Assembly (NCBI GenBank): GCA_000972765.1 | Contig: CP011265.1 | Span: 3,531,001-3,595,000, forward strand | Direction: 5' to 3' | Source: Verrucomicrobia bacterium IMCC26134 | GTDB taxonomy: Bacteria; Verrucomicrobiota; Verrucomicrobiia; Opitutales; Opitutaceae | Length of the DNA stretch: 64,000 nt | Shown: positions 34,345-37,380 of the stretch, piece after piece | Layout: each line of letters opens with the position of its first letter | Numbering within the stretch: position 1 is the stretch's first letter | Program-made: the position numbers and the translations under genes | The notes under the pieces: generated by a model | Told to the model about the DNA's origin: nothing | Seen by the model: the letters and a program-made list of their open reading frames with translations, nothing else | Database searches by the model: none

Positions 34345-34352
34345 ACAACTAA

Positions 34353-34377
34353 CCCGGTCGGAAAGATGCCGACCGGG
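34353..34377. terminator. Hairpin between convergent phosphoesterase and nitroreductase genes
   Basis: A perfect 9-bp stem (34353-34361 with 34369-34377) with a seven-base loop lies between two convergent genes. A short T-run follows on the plus strand at 34383-34386 and a T-rich stretch on the minus strand, so it may stop transcription from both sides. Its arms share the core CCGGTCG/CGACCGG with the leader hairpin at 29315. Confidence 0.75.
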
Positions 34378-34388
34378 CGCAGTTTTCG

Positions 34389-35039
34389 TTAGATATGTCC
34401 CAGTATCTCGGCGACAGGGAAACGCACCTTCGGCGCCAACGCATATTTGTCATCCGCGGCGCGATACCCGACGGAGCACGATACCACGGTGGCGAACTCG
34501 GTGCCCTTTAACCCAAGAATCTCGTCGTAAGCGGCCGGATCGATGCCCTCCATCGGGCAGGCGTCCACCCCTAGCAAGGCAGCGGCGGCCATGAACTGGC
34601 CGAGGGCAATGTAAACTTGCTTGGTCGCCCACATGTCGATGAGTCCCGCGCTGGTCACCTTTTCGACGAAGCCGGTCATCATGCCGCGATAAGGCGCGAG
34701 CGCTTCAAGCGAACCGCCACGCAACTCGATCTGGCGGGTGAGAAATTTATCGACGTGAGCCACATCGACCCCCTTGCGGATGGCAAAAACAACGTGATGC
34801 GAGCAATCCACGACCTGCGCCTGCCCCCAGGAGACGGGCACCAACTTCGCCCTCACGGCGGGATCGGTCACCACGATGAACTTCCAAGGCTGCAGGCCGA
34901 AGGAAGAAGGCGATACGACAAGAGCATGCTCGAGCGCCGCCCAGGTGTCAGACGGGATTTTTTTTTCGGCGTCGAATTTTTTCGTAGCGTAGCGCCAGTC
35001 AAGCGCGGCGGTGAGTTGGGTGGTGGTGATCGGAGTCAT
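34389..35039 (-). CDS. Nitroreductase family NAD(P)H-dependent flavoprotein
   Basis: This is a 216-residue NfsB/oxygen-insensitive nitroreductase-like protein. The FMN-binding start DWRYATKKFD, the block VVSPSSFGLQPWKFIVVTD and the C-terminal LGVDACPMEGIDPAAYDEILGL are characteristic. It would reduce nitro groups, quinones or similar acceptors with NAD(P)H. It lies 49 bases downstream of the alcohol-dehydrogenase/Old-Yellow-Enzyme fusion on the same strand, which suggests a shared operon for electrophile or xenobiotic reduction. Confidence 0.92.
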   Translation of the reverse strand: MTPITTTQLTAALDWRYATKKFDAEKKIPSDTWAALEHALVVSPSSFGLQPWKFIVVTDPAVRAKLVPVSWGQAQVVDCSHHVVFAIRKGVDVAHVDKFLTRQIELRGGSLEALAPYRGMMTGFVEKVTSAGLIDMWATKQVYIALGQFMAAAALLGVDACPMEGIDPAAYDEILGLKGTEFATVVSCSVGYRAADDKYALAPKVRFPVAEILGHI

Positions 35040-35088: not shown

Positions 35089-37380
35089 TCATGCTTTGAG
35101 AAAGGGATAATCGGTATATCCCTCGGGGGCGCCGGGCAGGTAAAACGTCTCCTGATTAGGCGTGTTAAGCGGGGCGTTTTTCAAAAAGCGCGTCGGCAAA
35201 TCAGGGTTCGCCAGAAACGGCACGCCATACGCGATGGCGTCAGCCTGGCCGTCGCGAATCGCCGCCTCGCCCGCATCACGGGTGAAACCGCCGTTGCGCA
35301 CCAGTGAGCCGGAGAAATGTTTTCGGGCTATTCGGGCCAGTTCGTATTCGGCGGGCTGGTCGTAGTTGGCATGGCGCAGCTCCAGAAAACCAAGTCCGCG
35401 TCTCTCGCCCTCGGCCGCGACGTGCGCGACCAGCGCGGCGGGAGCGGAATCCACCATATCGTTGAACCCAACCAGCGGGGAAAAACGCAGCCCCACCCGG
35501 CCGATGCCGAATACACTCGCCACCGCGTCAACCACCTCGAAGAGCAGACGCGCGCGGTTGGCGATCGAACCACCGTAGGCGTCGGTTCGGTCATTCACCC
35601 CATCGCGCAGGAACTGGTCGATGAGGTAGCCATGCGCGCCGTGAACTTGCACGCCATCGAAACCGGCTTGTTTTGCCTGCACCGCAGCAAGGCGGAAAAG
35701 TTCGACGATGCCGGCAATCTCGTCGGTGCGCAGCGCACGCGGCACAGGGTAGTCAAGTTTACCCTGCGGAGTATGGATGGTATCACCGCGCAGCGGCTTG
35801 TTTGAGGAAGAGACAGGCTGCGTGCCGTTATTGAGCACGGAGTGCGTGGCGCGGCCCGGATGCCAGATTTGCAGATAGATACGGCCACCGGCGGCATGCA
35901 CCGCATCGGTCACCCGGCGCCATCCAGCGGCATGCACCGCCGAATGGATACCCGGCTGATGGGGCCAGGCCTGCGCATCGGCCGCGACCATGGTGGCCTC
36001 GGCGATAAGAAGACCGGCGGATGCGCGCTGGCGGTAATAGTCCGCCATGAGATCACCGGGGACATTGTCGCTGCCGGCGCGCCTGCGGGTAAGCGGCGCG
36101 AAGAGCACGCGGTTTGGGATCGAAAGCGAACCTAGTTGGGCGGGAGTGAGGAGTTGCATGGTAAAAAATAAAAGTGGCAGGTCTTGTCGGGCGGTGTCGG
36201 CCAGGATGGCGATAATATCGTCGCGGGTGATCGGCCCGAGCGCATCAATGCTCTTCGCGTCGCCGTAGGTTTTAACCGTGTAATCGGCAACCCGTTCGAG
36301 GTCGGCGGCCGTGAAGCCGAGCGAGGCAGCGGATTGAAACAAGCCGTTGGCCGCCAGCCAGAGCTCGAAATGTTTCACAAAACCGCGGGCCCGCGCCATC
36401 TCATCGCCGGTGAGCCCGAATAGGCGGGAGCCCAGCTGGGCGAAGCGGGCCGTTGCGCGGCCGTGCGCAAGCAGCCAGCGGAAGTAGGCGGGATAAATAG
36501 TCGCCAGCCCTCGACCGTGGGCGAGCTCCGGGCGGACGCCGCTCATGCTGTGCTCGATCGAGTGCATCGGAAAACCGCTGTCACCCCGGCCGGCACCCTG
36601 GAAACCGCCGAGCGCAAGCGTCGAGGCCCAGAGGAGATTGCCGCGCAGTCCCTCGTCAGTAAGCGCGGCGAGCTGCCTGGGCAGGGTCTCGATCACGGTC
36701 AGCATGACGCCTTCGCAATGGCGGTCGGCCAGCGGGGATGCATCGCCACCCAGCAAGTAATTTTCAAAAACATGACTCAGAATATCGGATGCGCCGTCGG
36801 CGGTGACACTGGCAGGGACGGCGACCGTAAAGCGCGGATTCAGCCACGAGACCCGCGGCTTCATGAAATCGTGTCCTAGCACGGATTTTCCATGCGAGGC
36901 GCGCTGAGAAATCACGCTGTAGGGGGTGACCTCGCTCGCGGTCGCCGCGGTGGTGGCGACGCAGGCCAGCGGGAGCGCGGCCTTGAGTTGGAAGGCCTTC
37001 ACACCGCCAAGCGTAAAGGGCCATATGTCGTTTTCACCCGGAGACGCGGCGAGGCCCGCGATGGCCTTGGCGGCGTCCATCGTGGAACCCCCGCCGACCG
37101 CGACGACGAAATCGCAACCTGCAGCGCGCAAAGCAACGGTCGCCCGGTTCACGGTTTCCGCTTCCGGATTCGGTTCTATGCCGGCGAACGCTGTAATCTT
37201 CACGCCCGCTGCGGAAAGCAGGCGCTCAACTTCCGCGAGGTAACCAAGGCGGGCCACCGAACCAGAGCCGGTGACTACGAAAGCATGTTTGCCAAGCTTG
37301 GCTGCCGAAGCGGCAAAGGCCGCGCCTTTGTCAGAGCCGAAGTGTAGCTCAGTGGGAAGATGCAGCGTAAAGGAAAGCAT
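35089..37380 (-). CDS. Fusion of iron-type alcohol dehydrogenase and Old Yellow Enzyme (NemA-like)
   Basis: One continuous 763-residue frame. Residues 1-398 are an iron-containing alcohol dehydrogenase of the YqhD/butanol-dehydrogenase type with VAVGGGSTMDAAKA and candidate metal ligands Asp199, His203, His277 and His288. Residues 408-763 are an NADH:flavin oxidoreductase (NemA-like) with IWHPGRATH, VHGAHGYLIDQFL and YGGSIANRARLL. The alcohol dehydrogenase family normally ends at about ADTAR. Here Gln399 (CAA at 36184-36186) follows, one transition from TAA, then eight linker residues, then Met408, which is a natural Old Yellow Enzyme start. Stop-codon loss is the simplest origin. Initiation at the internal ATG (36159) could still yield a separate second protein. 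Confidence 0.85.
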   Translation of the reverse strand: MLSFTLHLPTELHFGSDKGAAFAASAAKLGKHAFVVTGSGSVARLGYLAEVERLLSAAGVKITAFAGIEPNPEAETVNRATVALRAAGCDFVVAVGGGSTMDAAKAIAGLAASPGENDIWPFTLGGVKAFQLKAALPLACVATTAATASEVTPYSVISQRASHGKSVLGHDFMKPRVSWLNPRFTVAVPASVTADGASDILSHVFENYLLGGDASPLADRHCEGVMLTVIETLPRQLAALTDEGLRGNLLWASTLALGGFQGAGRGDSGFPMHSIEHSMSGVRPELAHGRGLATIYPAYFRWLLAHGRATARFAQLGSRLFGLTGDEMARARGFVKHFELWLAANGLFQSAASLGFTAADLERVADYTVKTYGDAKSIDALGPITRDDIIAILADTARQDLPLLFFTMQLLTPAQLGSLSIPNRVLFAPLTRRRAGSDNVPGDLMADYYRQRASAGLLIAEATMVAADAQAWPHQPGIHSAVHAAGWRRVTDAVHAAGGRIYLQIWHPGRATHSVLNNGTQPVSSSNKPLRGDTIHTPQGKLDYPVPRALRTDEIAGIVELFRLAAVQAKQAGFDGVQVHGAHGYLIDQFLRDGVNDRTDAYGGSIANRARLLFEVVDAVASVFGIGRVGLRFSPLVGFNDMVDSAPAALVAHVAAEGERRGLGFLELRHANYDQPAEYELARIARKHFSGSLVRNGGFTRDAGEAAIRDGQADAIAYGVPFLANPDLPTRFLKNAPLNTPNQETFYLPGAPEGYTDYPFLKA

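Follow-up and report, generated by a model that had tools for sequence, protein, structure and literature searches.

The stretch of the Verrucomicrobia bacterium IMCC26134 genome analysed here (the window, 64,000 nucleotides in full) carries on its minus strand one long open reading frame that runs through two enzymes, an iron-containing alcohol dehydrogenase (ADH) and an Old Yellow Enzyme (OYE). The question raised by this locus is whether the two enzymes are really joined in this bacterium and, if they are, which change in the DNA joined them. The frame and its two halves are the following.

35089..37380, minus strand: fused open reading frame, 763 codons and a stop codon, calculated mass 81.1 kDa, uninterrupted in the assembly
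36172..37380, minus strand: ADH module, codons 1-403, complete by comparison with relatives
35089..36159, minus strand: OYE module of the alkene reductase type, codons 408-763, from its native ATG

Two full-length reductases in one frame

Three Pfam domains were detected in the fused frame: Fe-ADH (PF00465) at codons 9-182, with 150 bits against a curated cut-off of 31.3; ADH_Fe_C (PF25137) at codons 193-395, with 69.2 bits against a curated cut-off of 27; and Oxidored_FMN (PF00724) at codons 410-738, with 234.3 bits against a cut-off of 27 and covering positions 2-341 of the 342-position profile. Each half could be aligned over its whole length with a complete, separate gene of relatives. Because both halves align in this way and no other uninterrupted ADH-OYE match was present among the matches in 57 genomes, the joining of the two modules is more than a chance one.

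The nearest solved relatives of the ADH half by sequence are PDB 7w9x, 1vlj and YqhD (1oj7), and the homology to 7w9x covers codons 3-393. With these YqhD/butanol-dehydrogenase-type iron ADHs, the window protein has PF00465 and PF25137 in common, and Asp199, His203, His273, His277 and His288, which we take to be the putative metal site of the iron ADH family, are identical to 7w9x in the alignment. Unlike them, it continues into a complete OYE at its C-terminus. For the OYE half, the nearest solved relatives are the alkene reductase 8e5i and the ene-reductase 6uff, with xenobiotic reductase B (4ab4) further down. Homology to the OYE family, which also includes morphinone reductase and N-ethylmaleimide reductase, spans codons 409-761, and the sequence HGAHGYL at codons 580-586 is the putative substrate-binding motif of the family, His/His (or Asn) plus Tyr; the window copy differs from the family members in being fused behind an ADH. 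Both halves scored below the NCBIfam cut-offs of the corresponding named models. The ADH half reached 173.7 of the 645 bits set for the PRK15138 alcohol dehydrogenase equivalog, which we take to be E. coli YqhD, and was not assigned to it, while the OYE half reached 320.5 of the 403 bits set for the PRK10605 N-ethylmaleimide reductase subfamily. For this reason, functions are attributed here by family and not by orthology.

The lost stop lies at codon 404

The genus comprises 15 genomes including that of the window, which the collection describes as one per species. In 11 of the other 14 the ADH adjoins the OYE, and since one of them, G003, contains the pair twice, 12 relative copies could be compared. 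An OYE was found without an adjacent ADH in G002 and G012, and no match was found in G013. The two pairs of G003 lie on different contigs (L032 and L038), and with a stated contamination of 7% for this genome one of the copies may be foreign. That ADH and OYE were fused through loss of an intervening stop, as the initial annotation had proposed, is well supported by the separate neighbouring genes of these same-genus relatives. The features of the junction are listed below; in the minus-strand sense it reads CGA CAA GAC CTG CCA CTT TTA TTT TTT ACC ATG.

36184..36186, minus strand: CAA (Gln399), the lost stop according to the initial annotation; Gln in 12/12 relative ADH copies
36169..36171, minus strand: codon 404, TTA (Leu); position of the ADH stop in 12/12 relative copies (11 TAA, 1 TGA)
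36160..36171, minus strand: codons 404-407, LFFT, newly translated from the former stop and the intergenic spacer
36163..36173, minus strand: T4-A-T6 runs, in either of which a one-base change of length puts the OYE half out of frame

The initial annotation had placed the end of the ADH at Arg398 and had taken the following CAA for a former TAA. Both assignments are contradicted by the relatives, as all 12 copies continue through Gln399 (9 CAG, 3 CAA) to codon 403 and have their stop at codon 404, which is 15 nt beyond the proposed site. Although CAA is indeed one transition away from TAA, a lost stop at codon 399 is virtually impossible with both Gln399 and the stop at 404 present in every copy, and this candidate was rejected. 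The relatives do have the separate genes and the stop that the initial annotation had suggested looking for, but the stop is at codon 404 and not at 399. From its position it follows that QDLPL is the native ADH tail and that only LFFT is new before Met408, the start of the OYE. Thus, of the eight residues that had been described as spacer-like, four (LFFT) are new, whereas the other four (DLPL) belong to the ADH. The positions given for the CAA and for the ATG were both confirmed, the latter, at 36157-36159, being the native OYE start. By alignment, the junction would be accounted for by as little as one base, the middle one of codon 404 (36170), changing the stop TAA into TTA, which is a transversion and not the transition that had been assumed; a small deletion across the stop is a possible alternative route.

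Spacers in the same-genus relatives

The gap between the ADH stop and the OYE ATG ranges from 11 to 136 nt in the 12 relative copies, and in three of them (G005, G006 and the first G003 copy, G003a) the OYE start is in the frame of the ADH. There is exactly one in-frame stop between the genes in G005 and G003a (QDHAL*ASHNYIM and QDRPL*HQQSM, respectively), and there are two in G006. The two separate proteins of G005 gave matches to the Pfam families found in the respective halves of the fused frame. Judged by sequence, the fused frame looks like the outcome of losing a single stop such as that of G005 or G003a.

The fusion might also have arisen by a deletion that removed the stop together with part of a longer spacer, instead of by a point change. 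The 9 nt that follow codon 404 in the window, equivalent to the spacer, are fewer than in any of the 12 relative copies, and the nearest relatives examined in a concatenated tree, the sisters G004 and G001, have spacers of 127 and 136 nt, both of which speak for such a deletion. However, spacers of only 11-18 nt exist in G008, in both copies of G003 and in G005, and the long spacer of G004 (L047:1686-1812) is filled by a strong palindrome of the type CACAGAG...CTCTGTG (−30 kcal/mol against a shuffle mean of −13.9, z −6.4), which is found at the same place in G001 (L040/L051). Counting the spacers themselves, the core of this palindrome matched at 10 places in G004 and at 11 in G001; there were four matches in G005 and none in the genome of the window. 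A dispersed repeat thus seems to have lengthened the spacer in the G004/G001 pair, so that the long spacer may itself be derived, and it is plausible that the spacer was short before the fusion. A deletion of this kind is possible but, in our estimate, rather unlikely.

The gene row around the fusion

Two further features lie downstream of the fused frame.

34389..35039, minus strand: nitroreductase-family gene (PF00881), 49 nt downstream of the OYE stop
34352..34378, minus strand: terminator-like hairpin after the nitroreductase gene, 10 pairs, 8 of them G-C; weak evidence

Terminator-like sites in the region numbered 6 against 4.3 expected from shuffles, and a scan for sigma-70-type promoters found nothing. 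A nitroreductase gene follows the OYE in all 11 same-genus loci with enough flanking sequence (L035-L045); the flank of the twelfth copy, L032, is too short, and this copy was left out of the count. The distance between the two genes is 35-55 nt in eight loci and 647-663 nt in the other three (L035, L037 and L038). On the other side, a divergent pair of ABC transporter genes is present in 10 of the 11 loci, and in L039 the contig ends before this point. The gene row is mostly conserved and yet variable, with the gap of about 650 nt in 3/11 loci and with an OYE lacking an adjacent ADH in G002 and G012. The longer gaps (L035:8052-8714, L037:4009-4655 and L038:2193-2847) each contain, between the OYE and nitroreductase genes, a further open reading frame in the same orientation, 205-210 codons long; its product starts with PTVS[IV]VYHTGTGHTAVLAEAI and presumably resembles a protein of the flavodoxin/quinone-reductase type.

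A probable lineage-specific in-frame fusion and its alternatives

The best explanation of the locus, and the most likely one, is a lineage-specific in-frame fusion of two NAD(P)H-dependent reductases. The ancestor would have had an iron ADH/aldehyde reductase of the YqhD/butanol-dehydrogenase type and an OYE of the alkene-reductase type as adjacent co-directional genes, in a row with the nitroreductase gene. Once the ADH stop at codon 404 had been lost, by the change from TAA to TTA or by a small deletion across it, translation could have continued through a short spacer that by chance was in frame and free of stops. The fused chain would then be made as a bifunctional reductase in which each domain folds on its own and the two are connected by a nine-residue stretch, the native tail QDLPL followed by LFFT. 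Some free OYE may still be produced from the ATG retained at codon 408.

One alternative is an error of sequencing or assembly, in which case the real genome would have a stop, or T-runs of another length, at the junction and the genes would be separate. That every relative ADH copy carries a stop points in this direction, and so does the T4-A-T6 sequence at the junction, where gain or loss of one base in either run would shift the OYE out of frame and place the end of the ADH at codon 416 or 443. However, none of the four possible one-base changes of run length recreates a stop at codon 404, although all four break the fusion, and a pure homopolymer-length artefact was rejected on this ground. 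Only a substitution error would therefore make the window equal to its relatives, and substitution errors are presumably rarer than indels in consensus assemblies. In addition, the rest of the 2.3-kb frame is open, and the assembly, which consists of one contig, has a rated completeness of 100% and a contamination of 0.32%. We consider an error improbable.

Another alternative accepts the fused frame in the DNA but holds that the products are separate or mixed, the OYE being made mainly from its own ATG and the fused chain being cleaved, rare or inactive. The retained native ATG is consistent with this, as are the shortness, the hydrophobicity and the low model confidence of the joining stretch. 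Furthermore, in 8 of the 12 relative copies more than 20 nt lie between the ADH stop and the OYE start, and reinitiation was nearly abolished at gaps of more than 20 nt in E. coli and Haloferax according to one report (PMC10666635), which suggests that the OYE probably starts independently in the relatives and could still do so in the window. On the other hand, no in-frame stop is left at the end of the ADH half, and barring a frameshift, a ribosome reaching that point should run on into the OYE. Separate or mixed products are possible but, in our estimate, rather unlikely.

Selection on the two halves

Compared with G004, dN and dS were 0.057 and 0.94 for the ADH half (dN/dS about 0.06) and 0.079 and 0.92 for the OYE half (dN/dS about 0.09). 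The ratio of protein to third-position change on the terminal branch of the window was 0.082 for the ADH, within a range of 0.063-0.183 over 12 sequences, and 0.134 for the OYE, within a range of 0.040-0.202; the ADH value is rough, as the branching around the window in the third-position tree is poorly supported (0.154). The second G003 copy (G003b), whose ADH is cut by a contig end, was left out of the dN/dS, branch-ratio and private-site comparisons. Decay is apparent in neither half.

At sites otherwise invariant, the OYE half has eight substitutions private to the window, against 0-3 in each of the other 11 sequences, and two of them, V26R and A30S in OYE numbering, are near the junction. 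The ADH half has five private substitutions, with 0-4 in ten of the others and 20 in G009. Relaxed constraint after the fusion was considered as a candidate and rejected with the branch ratios lying within the range of the 12 sequences; the eight private OYE substitutions are left unexplained. With three outgroups, relative-rate counts gave 11-20 amino-acid changes in the window and 11-16 in G004; counts that used G001, the sister of G004, as outgroup were disregarded for that reason. Most of what separates the window from G004 may have arisen before the fusion, and for this reason the dN/dS and branch figures are no proof of selection on the fused protein itself.

Predicted structure and function of the fused chain

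An AlphaFold2 model of the fused chain, built from 23 alignment rows, was of middling quality (mean pLDDT 73.4, pTM 0.54). In the model the last helix of the ADH ends at residue 399 and residues 404-406 have pLDDT below 50, and over residues 411-740 the mean pLDDT of 10-residue blocks is 67-98. Values below 50 are also seen at ADH residues 1-17 and 113-183 and in the last 17 residues of the chain. The model is compatible with two domains that fold independently and are joined by a short coil. A junction as short and hydrophobic as this one (LPLLFF) is not necessarily favourable to such an arrangement.

In E. coli, glyoxals are reduced by YqhD, and NemA is an OYE co-regulated with glyoxalase I (PMC5297802). 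By analogy, the ADH half would use NAD(P)H to reduce the carbonyls of reactive electrophiles and the OYE half would reduce activated C=C bonds. The row of NAD(P)H-dependent reductases as a whole suggests a part in the handling of reactive electrophiles. A bolder and quite tentative proposal is that the chain is a stable natural iron-ADH/OYE double reductase, which would convert alpha,beta-unsaturated aldehydes to saturated alcohols within a single chain drawing on a common NAD(P)H pool and would have become fixed in one species through the loss of one stop.

How rare the combination is

So far the fusion is seen in one genome of the 15 in the genus. No other ADH-OYE fusion was present among the matches listed for 384 genomes of the class (down to about E 2e-89, with at most two candidates per genome), nor among the 12 matches at E <= 1e-118 in 387 genomes of the phylum, a search that overlaps with the former and again considered at most two candidates per genome. 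Among 72,556 plasmid records, none had one place covering 80% of the fused query. A long OYE frame in G192 (752 aa) was rejected as a fusion, as the match covers residues 398-761 only and the upstream part overlaps an open reading frame on the opposite strand. Among the open-licence papers listed in literature searches, none dealt with a natural ADH-OYE fusion.

Engineered redox fusions, such as the ene reductase-BVMO fusion XenB-CHMO and ADH-BVMO fusions, likewise join two redox enzymes by a short linker, but they are man-made and combine other enzyme pairs, and the available text of the source names no ADH-OYE fusion (PMC9354712). Longer flavoenzymes, namely mycofactocin FadH/OYE, BaiCD and a bifunctional salicylyl-CoA 5-hydroxylase/oxidoreductase, contain an OYE domain within a longer chain; they were weaker matches, and their models match the window protein in its OYE half only. 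As far as our searches reached, the fusion is ordinary in kind and new in combination. If the chain is made and active, it would be a natural version of the redox cascade enzymes that biocatalysis groups build by hand. With relatives at hand in which a single stop separates two in-frame genes, it offers a clean case for the first step of protein fusion. If the chain is not made, the locus would show how easily the loss of a stop in a short spacer passes for a fusion in annotation.

Related genes outside the genus

In four genomes of the same family (G214, G228, G270 and G303) the OYE is 64-67% identical, and no ADH match at E <= 1e-15 was found in the stretches of 7-8.5 kb around it. The OYE is 61-65% identical to those of Panacagrimonas and of a Lysobacterales MAG (L057 and L058), and the better same-family OYEs outside the genus among the matches in 57 genomes are only 45-54% identical. 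Horizontal transfer of the OYE is possible on these sequence identities. Public records with the gene row include MAGs titled Opitutaceae, Verrucomicrobia and, in three cases, Akkermansia muciniphila, the last of which look mislabelled. In a more distant Verrucomicrobia MAG (L059), the ADH (62%) comes 13 nt after the nitroreductase (61%) and the OYE (48%) precedes both, so that the same three families stand together in an order differing from that of the genus.
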